Below are positions 25,713-38,156 of a DNA stretch of 64,000 bases, piece by piece. The position numbers and the translations under genes are program-made. The notes beneath the pieces were generated by a model. The model saw nothing but the letters and a program-made list of their open reading frames with translations. It was not told the origin of the DNA and searched no databases. The DNA is from Fimbriimonadia bacterium (lineage in GTDB: Bacteria > Armatimonadota > Fimbriimonadia > Fimbriimonadales > JABRVX01): contig JABRVX010000041.1 in NCBI GenBank assembly GCA_039961735.1, positions 1 to 64,000 on the forward strand, written 5' to 3'. The number at the start of each line of letters is the position of its first letter. Within the stretch, counting starts at the first letter, position 1.

Positions 25713-26300
25713 CTAGCGACCGCCTCGGTCGAGCACCTGATCGATGAGACCGTATTCCTTCGCCTCTTCGGCGGACATGAAGTAGTCCCGCTCCGTGTCC
25801 TTGGAGACTTTCTCGATGGGCTGCTTCGTGTGCCGAGCGAGGATCTGCTTCAGGTATTCCATGTTGCGGTCGATTTCTCGGGCCTGAATGTTGATGTCTA
25901 TGGCCGTACCCTGAAAGCCTCCATGGACCTGATGGATCATGATTCGAGCGTGCGGCAAGGCATACCTCTTGCCCTCGGTGCCTCCGCACAGCAAGACGGC
26001 TCCCATGCTCGCGGCTTGCCCGACGCAGATGGTGGCGACGTCGCACTTCAGTATCTGCATCGTGTCGTAGATCGCCAGCCCAGCGGCAACTACTCCACCC
26101 GGAGTATTGATGTATAGCTCTATGTCCTTATCCGGGTCTTCCTTCTCCAGGAACAGCATCTCGGCGATGATCAGGTTGGCGACATGGTCGTCAACGGGCT
26201 CGCCCAAGAAGACGATGCGGTCCTTCAGAAGCCGCGAATAGATATCGTACGCACGCTCTCCGCGTGCCGTCTGCTCCACCACCATGGGGACCAGGCTCAT
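25713..26300 (-). CDS. clpP: ClpP, proteolytic subunit
   Basis: 195 aa, normal length. Serine peptidase that forms the ClpXP barrel. Triad S98 (GQAASMGA), H123 (MIHQVHGG) and D172 ([12 protein letters not shown]) are in place. The substrate loop reads [11 protein letters not shown] instead of the common INSPGG, a mild variant. AGGGAGG lies upstream of the ATG. No trigger-factor gene precedes it; the upstream region carries repeats. Confidence 0.97.
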
Positions 26301-26512
26301 GAACCACCCTCCCTAACGACGCCGCCCATGGCGTCGTTGTTGATTATCGGCGCAATCTGCCTAATTGTCGGCACGCGACGCAGCAAAAGCTCGCACGTCT
26401 GTTGGGAGTGCCGGACTTTCGCAGGGCTTCGCTAGCGTACCCGCAGACCGGCACTGGCCTGCACGCAACCCGGTAACTGGACCATATGCTGCCATCCCGC
26501 AGCCCAGACCCC

Positions 26513-26557
26513 GTCACGCTGAGCCCGTCGAAGCGTGACACCTTCCGCCGCGTGCCA
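26513..26557 (+). repeat. Palindromic interspersed repeat, copy 1
   Basis: Stem arms GTCACGCT (26513-26520) and AGCGTGAC (26532-26539) around GAGCCCGTCGA. A flank ending GCCGCGTGCCA is shared with copy 2 (2 mismatches over 45 bp). It belongs to the same family as the copies at 34.4 kb, in which the stem has T:A instead of C:G at the same pair. Confidence 0.8.
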
Positions 26558-26584
26558 GGGCCCGAGGTGCGATGCCTCCCGGCC

Positions 26585-26629
26585 GTCACGCTGAGCCCGT
26601 CGAAGCGTGACACCTCCTGCCGCGTGCCA
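26585..26629 (+). repeat. Palindromic interspersed repeat, copy 2
   Basis: Starts 72 bp after the start of copy 1, in the same orientation, with an identical 27-bp palindrome (GTCACGCT...AGCGTGAC, 26585-26611) and nearly identical flank. Same family as the 34.4 kb repeats. Confidence 0.8.
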
Positions 26630-26643
26630 TGCACTTCGAACAG

Positions 26644-26832
26644 CTACCTCTCCTCGAGCCGTCGGACCCGCTGCTCCAACTCCGTCAGCCGCTGCTCCAC
26701 TTGGACCAACACCTCGTCGAACATGCTCACGACCACGTCCGCTATATGGTTCGCATCCAACGGCGTCGCTTTGAGCCGCGATTTCACGGCATGAACCAGG
26801 TGCTGAGGGTCAGGCCTTCCTATGAGTTCCAT
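26644..26832 (-). CDS. Small coiled-coil protein (unknown function)
   Basis: 62 aa. A GGAGAGG sequence about 7 bases before the ATG supports it. The C-terminal half has heptad spacing (VLVQVEQRLTELEQRVRRLE), a likely coiled coil that would oligomerise. The start lies 12 bp after the stop of the thiamine-binding-protein gene, so the two are probably one operon. No family recognised; the N-terminal half is neutral and uncharacterised. Confidence 0.6.
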   Translation of the reverse strand: MELIGRPDPQHLVHAVKSRLKATPLDANHIADVVVSMFDEVLVQVEQRLTELEQRVRRLEER

Positions 26833-26844
26833 CCCTATCCTCTC

Positions 26845-27144
26845 CTATTCCAATCTACGCTGAACCGCCGCGGCCTTGTCTCCAACGTGGACCTCCTTGT
26901 CCATCCGCTGATCCAGCTTGATCGTGGTGACCACCCTTTTCGCCCCGGCCTCGAAGGGTGCGGCATGAATACGCGCAGCCAGAGCCAGCAGTTCCGCAGG
27001 CTCGCCTTCGATGACCGTGCCGAACTCACCCAGCACGTACGGCAGGCCCGACTGCACCGCCACCCGATGCGCAGCAGCCACATAGTCGCCAATCGAAGGG
27101 CTTGCGGTGCCCACAGGCACCACCGATATCTCCATCAACGCCAT
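26845..27144 (-). CDS. MTH1187-family thiamine-binding protein
   Basis: 99 aa. Ferredoxin-like YkoF/MTH1187 fold (UPF0045): MEISVVPVGTASPSIGDYVA, GTVIEGEPAELLALA, KRVVTTIKLDQRMDKE. Members bind thiamine or related pyrimidines in the cytoplasm; physiological role is unclear. The ATG at 27144 follows GGAGGAGG; the upstream open frame is not needed. Divergent from the pilus operon. Confidence 0.88.
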   Translation of the reverse strand: MALMEISVVPVGTASPSIGDYVAAAHRVAVQSGLPYVLGEFGTVIEGEPAELLALAARIHAAPFEAGAKRVVTTIKLDQRMDKEVHVGDKAAAVQRRLE

Positions 27145-27320
27145 CGCGTCCTCCTCCATCCAGTTCCCACCTCCGTCACGGCGAGCGGAGGCACCTAGCA
27201 AGGTTACCCGGAGCCTCCCTCTACGCTCAAAACCGCGCGCAAGGAAACCTGGAGCGCGCCTATAGGTTTGCCGGGTCGGTGACGATAATTGCAGCGTGAG
27301 TCCCGCCGGGAGGAACTGAA

Positions 27321-28136
27321 TTGTATGAGCAGTACTGGGGGCTGCTAGAGCCTCCGTTTAGCCTCACGCCCGACCCGCGCTTCTTGTACCTGAGCCGAAA
27401 GCACGAGGATGCGCTGATGATGTTGCATTACGCCATCACGCGCAACAAGGGGGCCGGTCTGCTGACCGGTGACATCGGTTACGGCAAGACAACGGTCAGC
27501 AGGAAGCTTCTCGAGCTCCTGGACCCAGTGAACTACAAGGTGGTCATGATCGTCGACCCGTTGCTGTCGCCGGCCCAGATGCTGCGGGAGATTCTCGACC
27601 AGCTGGGGGCCGAGTGTACGGGTCGCACGCGCCAAGCCATGGTCAGCGCGCTCCACGGAACCCTCCTGAGTGCCTACGAACGAGGCCAGCGGGTGGTGCT
27701 CCTCGTGGACGAAGCCCACCTCATCAAGTCTTCGCAGACCTTCGAGGAGTTGAGGCTGCTGCTGAACTGCCAAATGAACGACCAGTTCCTGATGAACTTG
27801 TTGCTGATGGGCCAGCTGGAACTTCGGCAACGCCTGGAGAAGGTCCCAGCACTGAAGCAGCGCATCGCCGTCAAATACGAGCTAAAAGCGCTCGATCCCC
27901 AGGAAACCGGCGAGATGATCGCCCATCGCATGAGGGTGGCAGGCTATGCCAACGGGCAGTCTCCCTTTACGCCGGACGCGGTGTTCGAAATTCATCGGGT
28001 CAGCGGAGGTACGCCTAGGCTCGTCAGCCAGCTCGCAGACAACGCGCTGATGGTCGGCATGGCACAGGGGCTAAAGCTCATAGACGGCGTGACCATGCAC
28101 TCGATCACCGAGGACTACGAGGAGAGGGCAGCCTAG
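27321..28136 (+). CDS. ExeA/GspA-like AAA ATPase at the head of the pilus operon
   Basis: 271 aa, TTG start with GGGAGGA 6 bases upstream. Fits the ExeA-type ATPases (YWGLLEPPFSLTPDPRFLYLS), with Walker A GDIGYGKTTVS, Walker B VVLLVDEAHLI, and a C-terminal helical lid (SGGTPRLVSQLADNAL). It lacks the C-terminal peptidoglycan-binding part of full ExeA. In Aeromonas, ExeAB helps the secretin cross peptidoglycan, so a role in assembling the PilQ secretin encoded in the same operon is plausible (inference). Relatives also occur in transposons (TniB-like), but no transposase is near. Confidence 0.88.
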   Translation: MYEQYWGLLEPPFSLTPDPRFLYLSRKHEDALMMLHYAITRNKGAGLLTGDIGYGKTTVSRKLLELLDPVNYKVVMIVDPLLSPAQMLREILDQLGAECTGRTRQAMVSALHGTLLSAYERGQRVVLLVDEAHLIKSSQTFEELRLLLNCQMNDQFLMNLLLMGQLELRQRLEKVPALKQRIAVKYELKALDPQETGEMIAHRMRVAGYANGQSPFTPDAVFEIHRVSGGTPRLVSQLADNALMVGMAQGLKLIDGVTMHSITEDYEERAA

Positions 28137-28137
28137 A

Positions 28138-28596
28138 ATGCAGCTTGTAGACGCCATCAGACAAGCCGCCAAGAACCCTACACCGGTGGCAGATCCCGTC
28201 TTAGTGCCGGAGTCTCCGCCCGTCGCGCCGCCCTCCTCGGCGACGGCGGGGACCCGACCGGTGCACGTGGCGCAGCCGGCACCGCCAGCAACCAGTGTCT
28301 TCGGCGGCAGCGTGGTCCGGCTCGAGCTTTTCCTAAGCCCCGATCAGCTCAGCGTCTTGTTCCGCGGGATCATCGGCGGAGCGCATTCCGTTCTGACCCT
28401 GCGCGAAGCCGCGAAGTACGTCAGGCTCTCCGCTGCAGAGCTCGAGCAGCTCTGCGAGACGCACCAGGTGCCAGCGTTCCGATTGCAGGGGAAGTGGCGA
28501 TTCCCGAAGGCCGCCCTTGACGATTGGCTGGCGGCACAATCGCTGGACCCGGTGCTTGCCGAAGCGGACTCAGAGGAGGACTCGGATGGGTCTTAA
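28138..28596 (+). CDS. Excisionase-type helix-turn-helix protein in the pilus operon
   Basis: 152 aa. Begins 1 bp after the ExeA-like stop. N-terminal 65 residues are Pro/Ala-rich. A MerR/excisionase-type HTH lies at about 85-135 (LTLREAAKYVRLSAAELEQL, VPAFRLQGKWRFPKAALDDWL), followed by an acidic tail. It could be a DNA-binding regulator, but in this setting the HTH may bind a protein partner. Its end overlaps pilM by 11 bp. Confidence 0.8.
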   Translation: MQLVDAIRQAAKNPTPVADPVLVPESPPVAPPSSATAGTRPVHVAQPAPPATSVFGGSVVRLELFLSPDQLSVLFRGIIGGAHSVLTLREAAKYVRLSAAELEQLCETHQVPAFRLQGKWRFPKAALDDWLAAQSLDPVLAEADSEEDSDGS

Positions 28597-29689
28597 GCTT
28601 TTCAGCCGAGACACGTTCGTCGGCGTAGACATCGGGAGCTACTCGATAAAGGTCGCTCAGGTCGAGCCGTCCGGCGATCGGTTGCTGGTCAGCCACTACG
28701 CCAAGGCCGCGACGCCCGAAGAGACAGTGCGCGATGGCGTCGTCGTGGACCCGGAGAGGCTCGGCGATGCCTTGCGCGACCTACTTCGGCGTTCAGGAGT
28801 CGGAGCTACCGCCGCCAACATCGCGGTCGCCGGCTCGTCGGTCATCGTCCGCTCCATCAAGCTGCCCAAGATGAACGAGGCGGCTCTCCGCAAGTCCATC
28901 AAGTTCGAAGCCGGCAAGTACGTACCATCCTCCGTGGATGACAGCTACATCGAGTTCGACATGATGGGCGACGTCGCGGATGGAAAGATGGACGTTCTGG
29001 TCGTTGCTGCTCCGAAGGACATGGTCGAGAGTCGCGTTGCCGCGGTGCACCGCGCGGGCCTCGAGACCGAGGTAGTGGACATCGAAGGTTTTGCCCTCTA
29101 CCGGGCCCTCATCGAGGCGAGGCGCGACGAAGCCTACACCGACCGCACGATGGCCTTGATCGACATGGGAGCGGCGCACACCCACATCAGCGTCGTCGCA
29201 AATGGGCAGTTCTCTCTCACCCGCTCCATTCCAATCGCCGGAGAGACCTTGACAGATGCCCTCAAGACTTTCTTCCGGACCGATGAGGAAGTTGCGAGAG
29301 AATCGAAGCACTCGCTCGATTTCTCGCCGCTCATCGGGTCAGAACTGAATACCGACGCGCCCCCTCAGCTGCGCCTGATCCAACCCATCATTGACGAACT
29401 CGTACGGGAGCTTCGTCGCTCGATCAACTACTACCAGACCCAGCAGTCCGAAGGGTCTTCGGCCTCGCCCGTGTCGGTTCTACTGCTTAGCGGCGGAGCG
29501 GCCCGAATGAAGGGAATCGCGGATTACCTCGGCTTCAAACTCGGCCTTCCCTGTCAGTTCCTCAGCGTATGGGAGAACCCGCGATTCCTCATGGGAGGGG
29601 ACAACGTGGACCCGGAGGAGGGCTCGGAATACGGAGTGGCGACGGGTTTGGCCATGCGACGCGCCGGTCGCCAGGCGATGGTGGCTTAG
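28586..29689 (+). CDS. pilM: Pilus assembly protein PilM
   Basis: 367 aa. Actin-like cytoplasmic component (FVGVDIGSYSIKVAQVE; phosphate loops MALIDMGAAHTH and LLSGGAARMKGIADYL) that binds the N terminus of PilN and connects the alignment subcomplex to the ATPases. GAGGAGGA precedes the ATG at 28586; a longer frame upstream lies inside the HTH gene. Followed by pilN after 14 bp. Confidence 0.95.
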   Translation: MGLKLFSRDTFVGVDIGSYSIKVAQVEPSGDRLLVSHYAKAATPEETVRDGVVVDPERLGDALRDLLRRSGVGATAANIAVAGSSVIVRSIKLPKMNEAALRKSIKFEAGKYVPSSVDDSYIEFDMMGDVADGKMDVLVVAAPKDMVESRVAAVHRAGLETEVVDIEGFALYRALIEARRDEAYTDRTMALIDMGAAHTHISVVANGQFSLTRSIPIAGETLTDALKTFFRTDEEVARESKHSLDFSPLIGSELNTDAPPQLRLIQPIIDELVRELRRSINYYQTQQSEGSSASPVSVLLLSGGAARMKGIADYLGFKLGLPCQFLSVWENPRFLMGGDNVDPEEGSEYGVATGLAMRRAGRQAMVA

Positions 29690-29703
29690 GAGGTGAGTTC
29701 AGC

Positions 29704-30306
29704 GTGCCATTAGTCAACCTGATCTCAGAACAGAGAACCCAGAAGCGGGTGGCCATCCGCAAGACGCGCGCGTCCATGCTCGCGTGGGTCATCTCACTAG
29801 GTGCTGGTGTGGCCGCCGTCGGAGCACTGATGTGGCAGGTGGACCGTCAGAGTGACCGACTCGCTGAGTTGAAGTCCAAGAGCGCCGGCATGCAACCCTA
29901 TCAGCACGCCATCGCAGAAGGTCAGAAGGAGCTGGCGGTTCTTCGTCCGAAGCTGACCACGCTCCAAGCCGCGAGCCGCGCAACAGAGACTTGGCATCGC
30001 CTACTCGGCCACGTGGCATCGCGTATGCCCGAGGGCACCTGGCTGACCTCGGTCCGCGCCCAAGAGGCCAAGGCACCTAGTCAAGGCGTGGAGGTTCGGT
30101 TCATCGGTTACGCACAGGACCAGAGCCTGGTCGGAATGGTCATGCAACGCCTCAACGAGTGCCCCGACCTCGCTCAGGTGGACCTCAAGTACACCAAGGA
30201 AAAGGAGTCGGGCAACAACGTCGGCGTCGAGTTCGAAGTCGTCGCGATGCTCGCTGTTCCGAAGGACGCCAGAGCGAAGGAAGGAGGCAAGGCCGTTGGC
30301 TCATGA
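29704..30306 (+). CDS. pilN: Pilus assembly protein PilN
   Basis: 200 aa. Short cytoplasmic N terminus with the PilM-binding LVNLISEQR motif (cf. IN/NLL), one membrane span (about 25-45), then a periplasmic ferredoxin-like domain with a coiled-coil. GTG at 29704 follows AGGAGGTGAG. Overlaps pilO by 11 bp. Confidence 0.9.
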   Translation: MPLVNLISEQRTQKRVAIRKTRASMLAWVISLGAGVAAVGALMWQVDRQSDRLAELKSKSAGMQPYQHAIAEGQKELAVLRPKLTTLQAASRATETWHRLLGHVASRMPEGTWLTSVRAQEAKAPSQGVEVRFIGYAQDQSLVGMVMQRLNECPDLAQVDLKYTKEKESGNNVGVEFEVVAMLAVPKDARAKEGGKAVGS

Positions 30307-31003
30307 TGCACTCGCCAAGTCGCAGCGTGTGTTCCTGCTGCTGACCGTTATTACCCTGATCCTAGCCGGCGGACTGAGCTACATGCAAATTACCGAGTGG
30401 CGCACAATCAAGTCCGAAGCCGACAAGATCGCCAAGGAACTCGACAACCCGGATGCGCTGCGCAGACAGGTTTCGGAGGTCCGCAACGCGATGGTATCCA
30501 GCCGACTAGCGGTAGCTCACTTGGAACTCAACCTTCCCACGCGTGACTACGTCCCGACCATGCTCCGCGAGCTGGAGGCGATGGGCCACGCATCCGGGCT
30601 CCGCATCACCGGCGTTCGTCCCGTCCCGAAGAAGGAGAAGCCGAAGGCCGTAGACGGGGAGAAGGACAAAGCCGCTCCCGGCGCACCGAAGGACGATTCC
30701 AAGAAGAAAGAAGAGCGGAAGCCTTACGAGGAGATGGACTTCGACATCCAGGCCACCGGCCAGTACATGCAGATTCTCAAGTTCCTCGAAATGGTCAGCG
30801 GATTCCCGAAGATCATTGCAGTGAGGTCCGTGTCCATCAACGCCACGCCGAACCCGAGAGACGTAGGTCCGCCGAAGCTGACCGCAACCTTCGGCGTGCG
30901 TGCGTACATCTTCCCGACGAGGCCGCAGAACCTCGCGGAGTCCCCATCCCGAGCTTCCACGGAACGGTCGAGCTCTACGCAGGGGGTGAGCGGTGGCGGA
31001 TAA
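30296..31003 (+). CDS. pilO: Pilus assembly protein PilO
   Basis: 235 aa, TTG start with AGGAGG upstream. A single span (VFLLLTVITLILAGGLSYM) precedes a coiled coil and a PilO-type periplasmic domain, with a Lys/Glu-rich insertion (about 105-140). Forms the inner-membrane alignment complex with PilN. Overlaps pilN and pilP by 11 bp each. Confidence 0.9.
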   Translation: MAHDALAKSQRVFLLLTVITLILAGGLSYMQITEWRTIKSEADKIAKELDNPDALRRQVSEVRNAMVSSRLAVAHLELNLPTRDYVPTMLRELEAMGHASGLRITGVRPVPKKEKPKAVDGEKDKAAPGAPKDDSKKKEERKPYEEMDFDIQATGQYMQILKFLEMVSGFPKIIAVRSVSINATPNPRDVGPPKLTATFGVRAYIFPTRPQNLAESPSRASTERSSSTQGVSGGG

Positions 31004-31577
31004 GAAAGTTCTCATCGTCGGCGCGTTGGCAGTCGTGTTGCTCGGAGTGGGTGCCCTGCAGTTCATGGGAGGGCCCAAAAACGAGCCACGTCCGGAGCCT
31101 AAGAAGCCGAAGCAGGCCGAAAAGCAGACGGCAGAGCAGGCAGAAGATATCCCGCTGCCCGACGGCGTCCGTGTGGGCCCGGCTCGAGACCCCTTTGCAA
31201 AGCCCGGGGGCATCGCATCGGCTACGGAGACAGGCCCTGGTCAGCGCACGCGGTTCGAGCCGACGGAGGCCGAGCTTCCGACGCAGAAGACCTCTCCACC
31301 CAAGCTCGGGCCGCTAGACGGAGGATCAGTGCCGACGCTGTCGGTGAGGCAGGCCATGAACGGCTGTGGCTGGGAGGCCGTGGGTGTGGTGATAGGTCCC
31401 GTGCCCATCGTCGTCTTGCGCGACGCCACGGGAGAACAAGTGCTGGTTCGCGAGGGCCACATGGCGGACGACGCAACTCGAATCCTGAAGGTGACACCTC
31501 GTTCCGTGACCGTACGGCATCTCAAACAGACCGTGACTTTGGCAATCGGAGGGGGCGTTGTTGAAGACAAGAAATAG
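30993..31577 (+). CDS. PilP-like pilus assembly protein
   Basis: 194 aa. One N-terminal span (VLIVGALAVVLLGVGALQF), a charged disordered linker with RDPFAKPGG (the DPF motif typical of PilP/GspC linkers), and a small C-terminal beta domain (about 120-190, GWEAVGVVIGPVPIVVLRD). Position between pilO and pilQ fits a PilP that links the inner membrane to the secretin. There is no lipobox, unlike PilP of Pseudomonas. GTG start. Confidence 0.83.
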   Translation: MADKKVLIVGALAVVLLGVGALQFMGGPKNEPRPEPKKPKQAEKQTAEQAEDIPLPDGVRVGPARDPFAKPGGIASATETGPGQRTRFEPTEAELPTQKTSPPKLGPLDGGSVPTLSVRQAMNGCGWEAVGVVIGPVPIVVLRDATGEQVLVREGHMADDATRILKVTPRSVTVRHLKQTVTLAIGGGVVEDKK

Positions 31578-34128
31578 CTTCGTTGTCCTGGGAGTCGGCC
31601 TGCTACTCACCGGCATGGCTTGGGCAGGACCGACCATCACCAAAGTAACCGTGACCAAACAGGGCGACGGTGCGGTCGTTCGCGTGCAAGGCACCGACCT
31701 CCCGCAGCCCACGTTCTCACGATCGAACGCCGGCAAGGCATGGATCGCCTCCTTCAAGGCGTCGCTCGCAGTGAAGCCGCAGTACGTCTCTCTCAAGCAG
31801 CCCAAGGTCCGGTATGTCCAGTACGGATGGTTCTCGGCGAAGCCGCCGGTGGTCAACGTGCTCGCCTGGATCGACTCGGGCGTCCAGCCCGTGGTCGAAC
31901 AGGGGTCCAACGGGGACTGGCTCATCTGGCTAGGAGTGGCTTCTCCCACGGCACCTGCTGTCGAGCAGAAGCCTGCGGTCGCTCCCAAACCGGTTCTCCA
32001 GCCTCAGAAGCCCGTCGACGCGGTACGGGAGAACAATTACGAAGGGAAGGCCGACCTAGCCGAGCAGCAGCGGCAGCGTGAGGCTCAGCAAGGGCGTGTC
32101 CGTGCGGCGGCTCCCCAAGCAGCCCAACGCCCGCCTTTGCCGGATGTCAAGGTCTCGCTCGAGTTCCCGAAGGCAGACGTGGTCGTCATCCTGCGTGCGC
32201 TCGCCCAGAACGCCGGCGTGAACATCGTTACTGCACCGGATGTAAGGGGTGAGATCACCGTCTCGATGCGCGACGAGAACGTGCGAACCGCCCTCGAATT
32301 GATCACCACGATGGCTGGGTATCGCTACGCGCTGGTTGGTCGCACCTACGTGGTAGGGACCGAAGACTTCCTGAAGCGGTTCGCAACCGCCGAGGCGCCT
32401 CCCGGTCAGCAGGATGTCCCGCTGCAGGATGTCACCGAGTTCGTGCCGGTGACCGGTTCGCCGCAGGAGATCGCCGAGTCCTTACAGGCGCTGATGCCGA
32501 GTGTCAAGGTGATGCCTGGCCCCGCCGGTGGTGCCCCCGTCGTTGCTATTCGCGGTCCGGCCCCGGAGGTGCAGCGCGCGCGGATGCTGCTCACTGCGCA
32601 CCTCTCGCAGGATGAGGTCATCGAGGTCTACACCGCGCGTCACCGCGACGCTCACGACCTGAAGACCTACTTCCAGGGAGCGAAGAACCTGGTGCCGGGT
32701 GTGCTGGCGATGGTCGGCCCGTCCGCCCTCGGCATGGCCGCCAAGCAGCAGGCCAAGGGTGCCCAGACCGGTTCGACTGCAGCCAAGACGAAGGATACGG
32801 AGCAAGCGGCTGCCGCAAAGACTACTAGCGGCGCCGTGCCCGATGAACTCCAGGAAGCCGCAGGCGCCATGCAGGAAGAAGGCGGCAAAGCAGAGACGAA
32901 GCCCGCCGGCGGCGGCGACACCGGTCCTGCGAGCGGCGACGATCGCAAGTTGGTTCTCAAGGGACCGCGCGCGGCGGTGGACAAGGCTCTCGAGATCCTC
33001 GCCGTTCTCGACGTGCCGTTCGATCAAGTCACCGAGGTCTACGTCGCCAAACACCTCAGCAGCCGCTCACTCCAATCGCTGTTCTCAGGCGGAACCGACG
33101 CTGGAGGAAAGTCCGGAGACGGGTCGGCCAGCCTCGTGCCTGGGGTGAAGGTCACCGAAGGGCCGATGTCCATCGTGCCTGCAGGACTGCGGCCCCAGCA
33201 GCGTGAGCCCGAGCCCTCGCGGCACCTGTTAGTCACAGGTCCCAGGGATCAGGTGGCGCAGGCTCTTCACCTGTTGGCGCAGCTCGACATGCCGGAGCCG
33301 CAGGTGATTATCGAAGCCAAAGTGATGGACGTGCTGCGTGACGACTTGGACAAGCTGGGTGTCAAGTGGGACCTCTTCGACAACGGTGTGATCAACGTTC
33401 AGAACATCGAACGTGCCAGTACCGGCGAGACTCAGCAGAACGTCCGAGATGGTAACTCGCAGACAAACGACAAGGTGGGGAACAACACCTTCGAACAGAG
33501 GAACCAGTATAACACCACCAACGATTGGCAGCGGACCTTCGAGACGCTCGGTGACCCCATCGTAAACACCTTCAACATGTCGTTCAACCCGAAGACGTTC
33601 ATTGGATCGATCAACGGCATCTTGGACGCACTAGTGGTAAGCAAGCGATCGAAGTTGCTGGCCAGCCCGAAGGTGTCTGCTCTCGATGGTAGGCCGGCGA
33701 GGATCTTTATCGGCGATATCGTCAAGTATGTCGAGCAGATATCGCAGACTACCACCGGTCCTACCATCACCATTGGAGAAGTCCAGGCGGGCATCCTGCT
33801 CAATGCCACGCCGCGTGTAGCGCCCGACAATAGCGTGACACTCTCGCTGGCGACCGACGTGAGTCTGATCACCGCCTTCAACGACGTACCAGGTGGTGGA
33901 AAGTTGCCTCAGGTGGCCTCGCGCAACGTGGACACGAACATCCGCATGAGGGATGGTGAGACCATCGTCATCGGCGGCCTGATCCGTGAGGAAGAGCTGA
34001 TGACGATGACCAAGGTTCCGCTGCTGGGTGATCTGCCATTCCTGGGCCAACTCTTCCGCCACCGTTCGAAGACCAAAACCGGGTCGGAGGTTGTGCTGTT
34101 CCTGACAGTACGAGTGGTTCAGGAGTAG
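31558..34128 (+). CDS. pilQ: Type IV pilus secretin PilQ
   Basis: 856 aa. Signal peptide, AMIN-like domain (about 20-125), secretin/TonB N0 domain (SLEFPKADVVVILRALAQN), N1-type repeats separated by Ala/Lys/Thr-rich low-complexity linkers (about 390-465), and a C-terminal secretin barrel (about 590-856) ending GSEVVLFLTVRVVQ. It forms the outer-membrane pore for the pilus, so the cell has an outer membrane. Two adjacent TTG codons (31558, 31561) are possible starts, overlapping pilP by about 20 bp. The long linkers are larger than in the Pseudomonas protein. Confidence 0.95.
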   Translation: MLKTRNSFVVLGVGLLLTGMAWAGPTITKVTVTKQGDGAVVRVQGTDLPQPTFSRSNAGKAWIASFKASLAVKPQYVSLKQPKVRYVQYGWFSAKPPVVNVLAWIDSGVQPVVEQGSNGDWLIWLGVASPTAPAVEQKPAVAPKPVLQPQKPVDAVRENNYEGKADLAEQQRQREAQQGRVRAAAPQAAQRPPLPDVKVSLEFPKADVVVILRALAQNAGVNIVTAPDVRGEITVSMRDENVRTALELITTMAGYRYALVGRTYVVGTEDFLKRFATAEAPPGQQDVPLQDVTEFVPVTGSPQEIAESLQALMPSVKVMPGPAGGAPVVAIRGPAPEVQRARMLLTAHLSQDEVIEVYTARHRDAHDLKTYFQGAKNLVPGVLAMVGPSALGMAAKQQAKGAQTGSTAAKTKDTEQAAAAKTTSGAVPDELQEAAGAMQEEGGKAETKPAGGGDTGPASGDDRKLVLKGPRAAVDKALEILAVLDVPFDQVTEVYVAKHLSSRSLQSLFSGGTDAGGKSGDGSASLVPGVKVTEGPMSIVPAGLRPQQREPEPSRHLLVTGPRDQVAQALHLLAQLDMPEPQVIIEAKVMDVLRDDLDKLGVKWDLFDNGVINVQNIERASTGETQQNVRDGNSQTNDKVGNNTFEQRNQYNTTNDWQRTFETLGDPIVNTFNMSFNPKTFIGSINGILDALVVSKRSKLLASPKVSALDGRPARIFIGDIVKYVEQISQTTTGPTITIGEVQAGILLNATPRVAPDNSVTLSLATDVSLITAFNDVPGGGKLPQVASRNVDTNIRMRDGETIVIGGLIREEELMTMTKVPLLGDLPFLGQLFRHRSKTKTGSEVVLFLTVRVVQE

Positions 34129-34199
34129 CCGTGATCAGCTAACGCCGTGACAGCGACACACTAAGCGGCTACGAGCAACTATTCGAGAACATAGATGCA

Positions 34200-34222
34200 A
34201 GAGGGAGGGGTCCCCTCCCTCT
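34200..34222 (+). terminator. Terminator-like hairpin after pilQ
   Basis: AGAGGGAGGGG (34200-34210) and CCCCTCCCTCT (34212-34222) are perfect 11-bp arms around one base, followed by GCTTTCTG. It lies 71 bp after the pilQ stop and is the likely end of the pilus operon transcript. Confidence 0.65.
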
Positions 34223-34375
34223 GCTTTCTGAGTCGAGCGTTCAGGCTAGGGCTGCCTACGTTCCCCCTTCGCTCGGGAGTCTTCCTCCCGATGTGTGCCA
34301 TGTTGCCGGACCGCAGTCTGCCGTCGGCGCTGAGGCGTTACGATGGCGTGGTGATCCACGCCATCCACTCGAGCC

Positions 34376-34397
34376 GTCATGCTGAGCCCGTCGAAGC
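34376..34397 (+). repeat. Palindromic interspersed repeat, half copy
   Basis: GTCATGCTGAGCCCGTCGAAGC at 34376-34397 matches the left arm and loop of the family but then departs (TAACG), so the right stem arm is lost. It lies 4 bp before a complete copy. Confidence 0.7.
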
Positions 34398-34401
34398 TAA
34401 C

Positions 34402-34427
34402 GTCATGCTGAGCTTGTCGAAGCATGC
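34402..34427 (+). repeat. Palindromic interspersed repeat, complete copy
   Basis: Left arm GTCATGCT, loop GAGCTTGTCGA, right arm AGCATG (34402-34426). The copy at 34481-34506 is its exact inverse over about 25 bp, so the two can also form a large stem with a 54-base loop. Confidence 0.8.
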
Positions 34428-34480
34428 AACCGGAAGCCGCGAACGTGGCACCTGAAGACGATAGCGTTCGGCACGTCCCG

Positions 34481-34506
34481 TCATGCTTCGACAAGCTCAG
34501 CATGAC
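34481..34506 (-). repeat. Palindromic interspersed repeat, inverted copy
   Basis: The complement of this segment is GTCATGCT-GAGCTTGTCGA-AGCATGA, the same element as at 34402-34427 in the opposite orientation. Confidence 0.8.
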
Positions 34507-34706
34507 GCGCAGGTGCACTCCCCCTTGGTCGTACTCCATGCCATGACGGTTCGGCGCGGCTACGAGCTGCATATCCGGACGACTCGGCAACGTCCGGAAT
34601 CAGCCTGACACCTTGCAGCATATCGAGGGGACCGTCGGGGCCTCGATACCGCACCGGGACTGCCTTGACGGGCAGAGACAGGTGTCGAGCCAAGCATGGG
34701 TTCACC

Positions 34707-37700
34707 CTACCGGATGTTGAAGTAACGTGCCTCCGGGTGGTGGCAGATGATGGCCGACGTGGATTGCTCAGGGACCATGTGGCACTCCTCGGTCAGTTCC
34801 ACGCCGATGCGTCTGGGATCGAGCAGATCGAACAGCAAGCGCTGATCCTCCAGGTTCGGGCAAGCCGGATACCCGAAGCTGTAACGCGCCCCCTGGTAGC
34901 TCATGCTGAAAAGCAGTCGGATCTCTTTAGCATCCTTGTCCGCGATCCCCAGTTCCTCTCGCACCCTCTTATGCCAGTACTCTGCTAGGCCCTCCGCCGT
35001 CTCCACTCCCATACCGTGAAGGTACAGGTACTCTTGATAGTCTCCGGCGTCAAAGCGCTCTCTTTCGTACTCCGAGATCCGGCTGCCCACCGTAACACAC
35101 GTGAAGCACGCGACGTCCATTTTCCCCGACTCTCTTGGCGCGAAGAAGTCGGCAAGGCAGAGCCTGCGATCGGACGGCTGTCGTGGGAAGGTGAACCGCA
35201 CGCGCTCTGTCTTTTTGTCCTCTTGATACACGATCAAGTCATTGCCCTCGGACTGGGCCGGGAAGTAGCCGTATACTACCTTTGGCACTAACAGACGCTC
35301 CTCTGCACACTGCTTTTTCAGTCGCTCGTACGTCGGTCGCGCCACCTCTTCGAGCAGCCGCTCGAATTCCGCCTTGGATAGCTTGCCTCTTCGCATCTGC
35401 CACTGCCCACGAAACAGCGCAACCTCCGAGTTAACGTAGGGGTACACGTCCCATACGTCTATGTCATCCACCACTCTGACTCCCCAGAAGGGTGGCTCTG
35501 GAATCGGCACTTCGGTGGACACGTCGCTGCGACGGGTATCGGTTGTCTGCACCGTCACGTTGGGGAGCGTGGCTTCCGCACGCGGTGTGGGGGAGGGTCT
35601 GCGATAGAGCTCTTCCATCGCGGCTGGCCCCTTCATCACCTCGCCCATCAGGTACAGCCCCTCGAAGGCGTCCTGAGCGTAGAACACCTTTCCATGGTAG
35701 ATGTTACGAAGCTCGTTTTCCACGTAGCTTCGTGTCAGTGCCGCTCCACCCAACAGGACCGGTGCGCCAAACAGACCGAGCCGGTTCATCTCCTCCAGAT
35801 TCTCGCGCATGATCAGTGTAGATTTCACTAACAGTCCGCTCATCCCAATCGCATCTGCCCCCGTTTCCTCATAGGCTTTGAGGATGTTAGCGATTGGCTG
35901 CTTGATTCCGAGATTGACCACCTCGTAACCGTTGTTGCTCAGGATGATGTCCACCAGGTTCTTGCCGATGTCGTGGACGTCTCCCGCGACGGTGGCCAGC
36001 ACCAACTTGCCACGAGAGGTCCCTTCCACCTTCTTCATCTTCGGTTGAAGGTACGCAACGGCGCGCTTCATCACCTCGGCGCTCTGCAGCACGAACGGAA
36101 GTTGCATCTCGCCAGAGGCGAACAGTTCACCCACCGTCTTCATCCCCTGCAGCAGGATGTCGTTGATGATGGCGAGTGGCTCGTAGCGCAGGAGCGCCTC
36201 ATCGAGGGATGCCTCGAGCGACGTCTTGACACCATCCACGATGTGCCGTTGCAGACGCTCTTCTACGGGAAGGGTTGTTAGGTCTCCGACTGTCGGTTCG
36301 ACTGCAGTATCTTCACGAAACAGCGCCATAAGAGCGTGCAGCGGGTCTTCACCATCCACCCTCTCGTCGAAGACGAGCCGCCGAGCGATTTCCCGAATCT
36401 CTGGCTCGATGCGGTTCAAGGGCACGATCTTTCCCGCATGCACGATGGCGGCGTCCAGGCCGGCTTCCAGTGCATAGTGAAGGAAAACCGAGTTGAGCGC
36501 CGTCCTCGCAGCAGGTTTCAGCCCGAAGGAGATGTTACTAACACCTAGCAGCGTGTTGCACTCCGGCCAGCGTCGCTTGATCTCACGAACGGCGGTGATG
36601 GTCTCAACACCTGCCCCGCGAAACTCCTCGTCCCCACTACCCAGTGTGAACGTAAGCGCATCGAAGAAGATGTCCTCGGGTGAGATGCCGAACTCCTCCG
36701 TGGCGATGCGGTGAAGCCGCTCGGCGACCTGCAGCTTACGGTCCACGGTCTTCGCCATACCCTCTTCGTCGATGGTGAGGGCTACTACGGCAGCTCCGTA
36801 CTTGCGACACATGGCCAACACTCTGCGCAGTCGCTCGCCTCCATCCTCCAGGTTCACGGAGTTCACGATGGGCTTGCCGGAGATGAGCTTCAGCGCAGCC
36901 TCCATCACCTCCGGCTGCGTGGAGTCGATCATGATGGGGATCGTGGCCTGCTGGTTGATCAGTGGTATCAGTGTGGTGACGTCGGCCACCTCGTCGCGTC
37001 CCACGTATGCCATGCACACGTCCAGCACATGGGCACCCTCGCGCTCCTGGTCGCGAGCCATCTGCGCCATCTCGTCCCAGTCTTCTGCAAGCAGCAGGTC
37101 GCGGAACTTCCGACTTCCGTTCGCGTTGGTCCTCTCGCCCACGATCAGGAAGCTGGTATCTTGGCGATAGGGTACCTGCTGGTACAGGCTCGCGCATGCT
37201 GGCACATGATGAGGATTACGTCGCGCCGGGGTTGCGCCTGCCAGTGCCTGTGACACGGCACGAATGTGTTCCGTGGTAGTGCCACAGCAACCTCCCACGA
37301 TGTTCACGCCGAACTCGTGAACGAACAGCGAGTGGTATTCCACCATCTCTTCGGGGGTTAGTGGATAGTGTGCCTTGCCTGCCACCATTTGCGGAAGCCC
37401 GGCATTCGGCAGCACGCTGATCGGTTTTCGCGAATGCGCACTCAGGTACCGGACGTGTGCTACCATCTCTTGCGGCCCCGTCGCGCAGTTCAGGCCGATG
37501 ATATCCACCTCCGGAAACGCTTCCAGAGTGGTGAGCGCCGCACCTATCTCGGTGCCCAGCAGCATCTTGCCGTTGCTTTCCATGGTCACCGAAACAATGA
37601 GCGGCAACTTGCCTCCCGACTCCGTGAAGGCATCACATGCCGCAATCACCGCACACTTGGCTTGGAGAAGGTCCTGGCAGGTCTCGATCATCAGCGCGTC

Positions 37701-38156
37701 GGCACCGCCTTCGATCAGTCCCAGTGCGTTCTCACGATAGCTAACTAGCAGTTCATCAAAACCGATCATGCCCATCGTGACCAGTTTCGTCCCGGGGCCC
37801 ATCGAGCCGACCACGAAGCGTGGCCTGTCTGGGGTCGAGAACTCGGCTGCCACCTCTTTCGCTATGGACGCAGCCAGCCTGCTCAGTTCGCGCGTCCTGT
37901 CGGCGATGCCGTACTCCCCCAGGTTCATGCAGTTGGCGCCGAAGGTATTGGTCTCCACGGCATCTGCGCCTGCCTCGAAGTACCCCCGCGCCAGAGATGC
38001 CACCACGTCCGGTCGAGTGGCGTTGAGTATCTCGTTGCAACCCTCCAGGCCGTCGAAGTCGGCAGCCGTCAGCCCCGCGGCCTGCAGCGACGTGCCGGTC
38101 GCGCCGTCGAAGATCATCAAGCGCTTGTGCAGCGTCTCCAAGAACAGGGAATTCAT
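34707..38156 (-). CDS. metH: Cobalamin-dependent methionine synthase MetH
   Basis: 1149 aa, full length. Transfers the methyl group from methyltetrahydrofolate to homocysteine through B12. Domains in order: homocysteine-binding barrel (FDGATGTSLQAAGL; zinc ligands in GLNCATGP and GGCCGTT), pterin-binding domain (SFLIVGERTNANGSRKFRDL), helical cap, cobalamin domain with DVHDIGKNLVDIIL (His axial ligand), and the C-terminal SAM/activation domain (FSMSYQGARYSFGYPACP). No cobalamin riboswitch is visible in the short upstream region. It diverges from ylxR-infB. Confidence 0.97.
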   Translation of the reverse strand: MNSLFLETLHKRLMIFDGATGTSLQAAGLTAADFDGLEGCNEILNATRPDVVASLARGYFEAGADAVETNTFGANCMNLGEYGIADRTRELSRLAASIAKEVAAEFSTPDRPRFVVGSMGPGTKLVTMGMIGFDELLVSYRENALGLIEGGADALMIETCQDLLQAKCAVIAACDAFTESGGKLPLIVSVTMESNGKMLLGTEIGAALTTLEAFPEVDIIGLNCATGPQEMVAHVRYLSAHSRKPISVLPNAGLPQMVAGKAHYPLTPEEMVEYHSLFVHEFGVNIVGGCCGTTTEHIRAVSQALAGATPARRNPHHVPACASLYQQVPYRQDTSFLIVGERTNANGSRKFRDLLLAEDWDEMAQMARDQEREGAHVLDVCMAYVGRDEVADVTTLIPLINQQATIPIMIDSTQPEVMEAALKLISGKPIVNSVNLEDGGERLRRVLAMCRKYGAAVVALTIDEEGMAKTVDRKLQVAERLHRIATEEFGISPEDIFFDALTFTLGSGDEEFRGAGVETITAVREIKRRWPECNTLLGVSNISFGLKPAARTALNSVFLHYALEAGLDAAIVHAGKIVPLNRIEPEIREIARRLVFDERVDGEDPLHALMALFREDTAVEPTVGDLTTLPVEERLQRHIVDGVKTSLEASLDEALLRYEPLAIINDILLQGMKTVGELFASGEMQLPFVLQSAEVMKRAVAYLQPKMKKVEGTSRGKLVLATVAGDVHDIGKNLVDIILSNNGYEVVNLGIKQPIANILKAYEETGADAIGMSGLLVKSTLIMRENLEEMNRLGLFGAPVLLGGAALTRSYVENELRNIYHGKVFYAQDAFEGLYLMGEVMKGPAAMEELYRRPSPTPRAEATLPNVTVQTTDTRRSDVSTEVPIPEPPFWGVRVVDDIDVWDVYPYVNSEVALFRGQWQMRRGKLSKAEFERLLEEVARPTYERLKKQCAEERLLVPKVVYGYFPAQSEGNDLIVYQEDKKTERVRFTFPRQPSDRRLCLADFFAPRESGKMDVACFTCVTVGSRISEYERERFDAGDYQEYLYLHGMGVETAEGLAEYWHKRVREELGIADKDAKEIRLLFSMSYQGARYSFGYPACPNLEDQRLLFDLLDPRRIGVELTEECHMVPEQSTSAIICHHPEARYFNIR

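Follow-up and report, generated by a model that had tools for sequence, protein, structure and literature searches.

CGTC-type REP-like repeats of a Fimbriimonadia bacterium and their link to stand-alone GIY-YIG endonuclease genes

Repetitive extragenic palindromes (REPs) with a CGTC tag are described, in the one survey of them found here, as apparently lacking a dedicated transposase, and what mobilises them is left open there (PMC3733652); Azospirillum lipoferum is among the species that the survey names. On small GIY-YIG proteins, the parts of PMC1839093 drawn on here discuss three Caulobacter COG2827 genes, one of them with an SOS box, as possible repair enzymes. Here we analyse REP-like repeats in a stretch of 64,000 nucleotides from a Fimbriimonadia bacterium (Armatimonadota; assembly GCA_039961735.1, contig JABRVX010000041.1, positions 1 to 64,000 of the forward strand), which we call the window, and relate them to a stand-alone GIY-YIG gene on contig 45 of the same genome. 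The most valuable outcome lies outside the coordinates of the original prediction that drew attention to these repeats: a specific link between CGTC-type REPs and stand-alone GIY-YIG genes, which is well supported in the loci tested and for which we propose a hypothetical mechanism.

The unit CGTCAYGCTGAGCYYGTCGAAGC occurs five times in the window, as a pair at 26.5 kb and a group of three at 34.4 kb. The full 8-bp stem is present in three of them, including the 26.5-kb pair, where ACGCT:AGCGT forms part of a stem with all 8 bp; in the other two, both at 34.4 kb, the 3′ arm is broken and reads AGCTAACG and AGCATGCA (copies 34375-34397 and 34401-34426). The original prediction had named copies near 26.5 kb and near 34.4 kb. 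Of the two forms, GTCACGCT...AGCGTGAC has two occurrences on the + strand (26513-26539 and 26585-26611) and GTCATGCT...AGCATGAC a single one (34480-34506), the other two copies at 34.4 kb being those with the broken arm. A strict palindrome pattern matches the window three times and matches none of 100 dinucleotide shuffles, and the folding z-scores are -3.7 and -3.2 for full units and -0.6 and -1.5 for broken-arm units. The 17-base core GCTGAGCYYGTCGAAGC has 175 exact matches (90 + 85) across the 77 contigs (3.2 Mb) of the genome, and its reversed control has none. The repeat is a short palindrome in many dispersed copies, as is characteristic of REPs, and the REP-like family is real.

On contig 45, these REPs lie on both sides of a gene whose small product has a GIY-YIG domain (PF01541, E 3e-12). 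Seventeen proteins, including one that is UPF0213-like, all have Y7, Y17, G19, R27, and E64, and Y7, Y17, R27, and E64 are presumably the catalytic residues. With the GIY-YIG (PF01541) domain and these residues in place, the protein is a putative nuclease as judged from its sequence; its structural model has a mean predicted local distance difference score (pLDDT) of 78.6. The stand-alone group to which it belongs is one that we take to be COG2827-like. The open frame of the contig 45 gene (L270 3441-4097) runs through the adjoining repeats, which are translated as VMLSLSKH and may mislead automatic annotation. A PF01541 search of 23 repeat-bearing genomes, our own included, yielded 30 loci, and at six of these an exact core is found on both sides of the GIY-YIG domain, within about 130 bp. 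The six come from Eremiobacterota or WPS-2, Nitrospinota, and proteobacterial genomes.

The association was quantified with a model-free flank test, in which an inverted or direct repeat had to exceed the best score among 100 mononucleotide shuffles by more than 1. The test counts any repeat and alone does not identify REPs, and counts for inverted repeats only, for cores, and for CGTC hairpins are given alongside. Loci were best search matches or hand-picked rather than a random draw, genome relatedness is uncorrected, and the GIY-YIG types and subgroups A and B were drawn up post hoc, on the basis of motifs and trees. Flanks were repeat-bearing in 54 of the 71 loci of the stand-alone group, 41 of them with inverted repeats, and three group members had too little flank to test. 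The controls gave 0/27 for UvrC-like or other proteins, 0/9 for UPF0213-like proteins, and 0/6 for a fourth type, and windows shifted within the same loci were repeat-bearing in 1 of 82 cases. By batch, repeat-bearing genomes gave 19/21 and 6/6, a sample of the phylum taken irrespective of the repeat gave 18/30, and a second phylum batch gave 11/14; seven of the 20 stretches in this last batch were chosen since their genomes hold the core, and three of its 11 positives are among them. A relaxed core occurs on both sides in 12/71 stand-alone loci versus 0/42 loci of other GIY-YIG types, and on either side in 19/71 versus 1/42. When a core or a CGTC hairpin is counted, both sides are occupied in 20/71 versus 0/42. 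At the 12 loci with cores on both sides, the nearest copies are oriented "+ gene −" with the CGTC ends outward in 11, the arrangement being reversed in L325. Core-type repeats with another tag (ATGGTGYCCTGAGC...) lie on one side of GIY-YIG genes in L336, L337, and L338 (G261, G141, G237).

The link is specific. In a tree of 88 GIY-YIG domains, which is built on 74 columns only and leaves many forks open, all 40 flanked rows fall into one supported group of 55 (98/90), together with 13 unflanked and 2 untestable rows, and none of the 33 rows outside this group is flanked. Within the stand-alone group, repeat type follows protein subgroup: subgroup A, with a ..YT..RRPV..-like motif, carries the CTGAGC...GTCGAAG repeat at 17 of 24 loci (on both sides at 12), compared with 2 of 47 loci in subgroup B (on both sides at none; Fisher 4e-9). 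Our genome holds a second stand-alone GIY-YIG gene, of subgroup B, at contig 48:85210-85928 (L287), flanked by a CGTC-1-like repeat, TGGATTCCCGC..GCGGGAATGAC; this repeat has 12 genomic copies, four of which surround the gene.

Six named loci, of 32 matching plasmid-collection records, were examined. Repeat-bearing flanks are found at four of them (A. lipoferum, Sinorhizobium meliloti, Neisseria gonorrhoeae, and Aeromonas caviae) and not at the Photobacterium and Rhizobium tumorigenes GIY-YIG loci. The Neisseria case counts for little, because the gene sits in a dense array of such repeats. In A. lipoferum 4B, sufB and sufC are separated by the GIY-YIG gene and by CGTCATCCCCGCGAAGGCGGGGATCCAG-type doublets to its left and right; five relatives have a short sufB-sufC gap only, and this gap is too diverged for the exact ends to be read.

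The repeat unit forms a hairpin of which the inner part is kept. The 11-base loop motif occurs at 214 genomic places (60 + 154), some of which are chance matches, since the reversed controls give 7 and 27. Stretches around 160 of these places and the window provided 173 loop matches, of which 165 elements were kept and eight, with neither GTC 5′ nor AAGC 3′, were dropped. From outside to inside, the stem pairs are Watson-Crick in 70, 63, 124, 122, 157, 160, 164, and 142 of the 165 elements, the two outermost having a further 7 and 13 G-T pairs; the loop varies as GAGCYYGTCGA. The original prediction held that one stem pair, here pair 5, changes from C:G to T:A with compensation and that the folded form is kept on this account. 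Pair 5 is indeed T:A in 139 elements, C:G in 18, and unpaired in eight, and its compensation is real, although it perhaps reflects few events multiplied by copying. In contrast, pair 8, which closes the loop, is T:A in 142 and an uncompensated C.A in 21, and the outermost two pairs are lost in about half of the elements. Stem compensation is partial. In 152 elements, partly chosen by their GTC, the G, T, and C of the 5′ CGTC tag are constant and its first C is C in 144 and T in seven, while the opposing GAC is lost in about half of the elements. As in CGTC-tagged REPs, the CGTC (or TGTC) end is kept as sequence and not as a pair.

Covariation across genomes bears this out. Among 60 loop matches from other genomes, none of which equals the searched 27-mer and a few of which look like chance, pairs 5-8 are Watson-Crick in 46, 48, 52, and 50, compared with maxima of 36, 36, 44, and 47 in 1000 permutations; these genomes, too, are uncorrected for relatedness. 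Pairs 1 and 4 equal their permutation maxima (38 and 40), and pairs 2 and 3 fall short of theirs. Stem arms include GTCATCCT/AGGATGAC and GTCACCCT/AGGGTGAC. With inner-stem covariation well above the permutations, the hairpin is kept, but its outer edge is not. Stem changes without matching partners, named at the outset as the finding that would speak against a retained fold, do occur in part of the stem, because pair 8 has C.A in 21 elements and the outermost pairs are mostly not Watson-Crick; the inner stem is upheld across phyla.

Among 160 listed places, the commonest arrangement of neighbours is head to head at 78 bp (22 cases), followed by 26-bp tandems (14 and 5 cases). Comparison of 24 exact doublets gives 92.9% identity at the ends; for the 55-bp interiors, identity is 42.1% on the same strand, 40.0% in reverse complement, and 26.3% when shuffled. 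The left and right halves of the interiors show no mirror covariation within doublets (0.289 versus 0.397 permuted), and a long hairpin formed by the whole doublet was rejected on this ground. The low value is putatively explained by an asymmetric interior that is present in both orientations. Different spacings are kept in other genomes, such as 61 bp in a Hymenobacter. Tandem units with another unit behind them (n=35) mostly lack the outer 3′ arm, pair 4 being A:T in 4/35. Arrays with the 26-bp period occur at L191, L238, L249, L268, and L270, where the junctions AGCAAACGTC, AGCTAACGTC, and AGCACCCGTC break the outer stem. On contigs 25, 39, 42, and 70 (L252, L254, L256, L258), the C:G variant is clustered among other repeated segments common to several contigs, and several contigs terminate near REP copies. 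The idea that a multi-copy insertion sequence underlies the copies at contig ends was dropped, as inspection by eye of the contig 25 frames and of nine stretches from contigs 10, 29, 39, 42, 45, 46, 68, and 70 revealed no obvious transposase; the Pfam search among these covered the contig-45 GIY-YIG frame only.

The family is spread widely and unevenly. The exact 27-mer is found in at least 113 stretches, and many of the 80 listed belong to Hymenobacter; taxa among the matches listed include Bacteroidota, Eremiobacterota, Spirochaetota, Alphaproteobacteria, Nitrospinota, Smithella, Thermomicrobiales, Patescibacteria, and more. All 35 searched genomes with the 27-mer hold the 15-base core in multiple copies, 3-322 each. 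Of 60 relatives from the order of our genome, five have one core match and 55 have none, and of 201 genomes of the phylum, our own included, 54 have any match and nine have more than 10. This scattered distribution fits horizontal spread with local amplification.

We consider it rather probable that the copies in the window belong, as non-autonomous members, to a CGTC-end REP-like family whose associated gene is the stand-alone GIY-YIG endonuclease of contig 45. The nuclease may be the mover of the repeats: it would recognise the folded REP and cut near the CGTC end, and repair or copying would then insert doublets at new sites. On this reading, the autonomous form would consist of the GIY-YIG gene and the REPs at its sides, and the short doublets would be non-autonomous. 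For the broader proposal the chances seem about even. It states that stand-alone GIY-YIG nucleases are the missing dedicated enzymes of CGTC-type REPs and define a second, HUH-independent class of REP spreading in many phyla, with REP-gene-REP units as autonomous elements and doublets as their miniature derivatives.

Several observations weigh against this assignment. Seventeen of the 71 stand-alone group members have no flanking repeat, and the flank test also scores direct repeats that are not REPs. In a further 30 loci outside the 54/71 count (27 testable, 7/30 seen before, most from other genomes), 15 had repeat-bearing flanks, but seven of these (L412, L418, L419, L420, L423, L424, L425, from G032, G035, G002, and G021) belong to other types of small GIY-YIG gene; their repeats are all direct, and tRNA genes lie near the gene at each of the seven. 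In a second tree, built from 109 rows, the flanked group and the UPF0213-like rows are not separated. For G129, at least 10 cores had been predicted beforehand and five were found. A search with a 17-row alignment found no stand-alone GIY-YIG gene in G222 (286 copies, 92% complete), in the Hymenobacter genome G019 (36 copies; its locus is on a record designated a complete genome), or in G007 (22 copies), G254 (17), G249 (16), G005 (13), G138 (7), and G030 (6), and only the UPF0213-like type is present in G008, G014, G024, G027, and G029. Repeat-rich genomes of this kind could have lost the gene, could have an assembly gap at the repeats, could be served by a gene acting elsewhere, or could use a different mover.

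The genomes that are rich in REPs and have no match to a stand-alone GIY-YIG gene also fit a different view, in which the gene is a homing-type selfish gene that lands in existing REPs and something else spreads the repeats. GIY-YIG nucleases include homing endonucleases, and for five of eight proteins scanned the best NCBIfam match is to a model of group I intron endonucleases, at a score far below the cut-off. On the other hand, G129 (4.8 Mb) and G215 (4.0 Mb) hold exact cores only at the GIY-YIG locus (5/5 and 6/6, in G215 on one side of the gene only), an indication that the repeats arrive together with the gene. The match of repeat type to protein subgroup speaks in the same direction, though landing sites would give likewise. 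We regard a homing gene of this kind as unlikely.

The position of the window copies recalls host elements, which would act at transcript ends, in mRNA stability, or as protein-binding sites, the GIY-YIG enzyme only trimming or controlling REP hairpins. All five copies in the window lie between Pfam-supported genes, those at 34.4 kb between convergent genes and those at 26.5 kb in an intergenic region, and doublet spacing is rigid. Host elements would not lead one to expect zero or one core in the 60 order-level relatives and yet an exact 27-mer common to distant phyla. The window has no Rfam match at gathering scores, on which ground a known RNA family was set aside; as evidence against a host element, this says little. 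We give this explanation a small chance.

The original prediction named RAYT transposases (REP-associated tyrosine transposases; TnpA-REP, Y1/HUH type), absent from the window, as the movers, and proposed a search for such a gene. The only Y1_Tnp gene found in the genome, on contig 59, is surrounded by an inverted repeat of its own, of GGACCGCGCCGGGGC type (L031 1-730), and the loop motif is absent from its 2-kb locus. Among the 35 repeat-bearing genomes, Y1_Tnp was matched in 17 and not found in 18, nine of which have at least 30 copies. The motif was near none of 30 Y1 loci examined (of 61 matches), though 14/29 testable Y1_Tnp loci have repeat-bearing flanks, as expected for RAYTs with their own repeats. 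A RAYT that moves these repeats, as for GTAG REPs, is very improbable and was rejected, in spite of the REPIN-like doublet architecture (REPINs as outlined in PMC3116915) and of the one Y1_Tnp gene in the genome.

The features of the window are collected in the table. The DNA between the two REP sites (27321-34128) encodes an AAA ATPase, PilM, and a secretin, which belong to a type IV pilus or type II secretion cluster.

Table. REP copies in the window and the genes beside them.
Feature	Position	Strand	Remark
REP copy 1, C:G stem variant (CGTCACGCT...AGCGTGAC)	26512..26539	+	full 8-bp stem
REP copy 2, C:G stem variant	26584..26611	+	full stem; direct repeat, 72 bp from copy 1
REP copy 3, T:A variant	34375..34397	+	3′ arm broken at 26-bp tandem junction (AGCTAACGTC)
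REP copy 4, T:A variant	34401..34426	+	outer 3′ arm broken (AGCATGCA); left half of head-to-head doublet
REP copy 5, T:A variant	34480..34507	-	full stem; right half of doublet (78 bp start to start)
Head-to-head REP doublet, REPIN-like	34401..34507	.	CGTC ends outward
ClpP gene (context)	25713..26300	-	beside 26.5-kb copies
Thiamine-binding protein gene (context)	26845..27201	-	other side of 26.5-kb copies
Secretin gene (context)	31558..34128	+	converges on 34.4-kb copies
B12-dependent methionine synthase gene (context)	34707..38156	-	converges on 34.4-kb copies

In the titles and opening lines of abstracts among the matches listed, within a partial literature without preprints, REPs flanking GIY-YIG genes were not found described, and a text search by repeat sequence returned other subjects only. 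Moraxella, with both RayT and GIY-YIG genes, was considered as a link and rejected, as the pangenome section and the gene table of PMC9465073 name them apart.

Compared with the CGTC-tagged REPs of Di Nocera et al (2013), as they are characterised in the relevant sections of PMC3733652, the family described here has CGTC at one end, frequent head-to-head dimers (22 pairs at ± 78 bp being commonest), occurrence in several phyla, and no Y1 association. The comparison is one of descriptions and not of consensus sequences. In contrast to CGTC-tagged REPs 1-4, with stems of 8-9 bp and loops of 4-5 nt, 5 bp are kept here and 8 are the maximum, and the loop has 11 nt; the dimensions would agree only with the G.A steps of TGAG/CGAA taken as pairs. 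Moreover, REPs 1-4 have a 3-bp tail, mostly CCA, whereas no conserved tail follows AGCATG here, and the 26-bp tandem arrays are a further difference (PMC3733652). Since CGTC-tagged REPs are described there as apparently without a dedicated transposase, the GIY-YIG nuclease is a testable candidate for this role: a small conserved nuclease between CGTC-type REPs, with the repeat type matched to its subgroup, makes the question of mobilisation directly accessible to experiment.

REPINs, in the account of Bertels and Rainey (2011, parts of PMC3116915), share with our doublets two inverted REPs at fixed spacing with conserved ends and a spacer that is kept in length and only weakly in sequence. They differ in that the halves of the REPIN spacer pair with compensatory changes, which the interiors here do not, and in the associated gene: no RAYT was found here, and a GIY-YIG gene stands in its place. 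UPF0213 GIY-YIG proteins (PDB 1zg2, 1ywl) are the only solved sequence relatives at E up to 1 in one query; they differ from the stand-alone group in having no locus with repeat-bearing flanks among nine, one of which, L289, has a core on one side. The stand-alone proteins resemble the COG2827-like proteins in the passages of PMC1839093 cited here, with about 100 amino acids and an intact GIY-YIG catalytic core, and the link to CGTC-type REPs suggests a role for this widespread small group, which is tentatively placed there with DNA repair.

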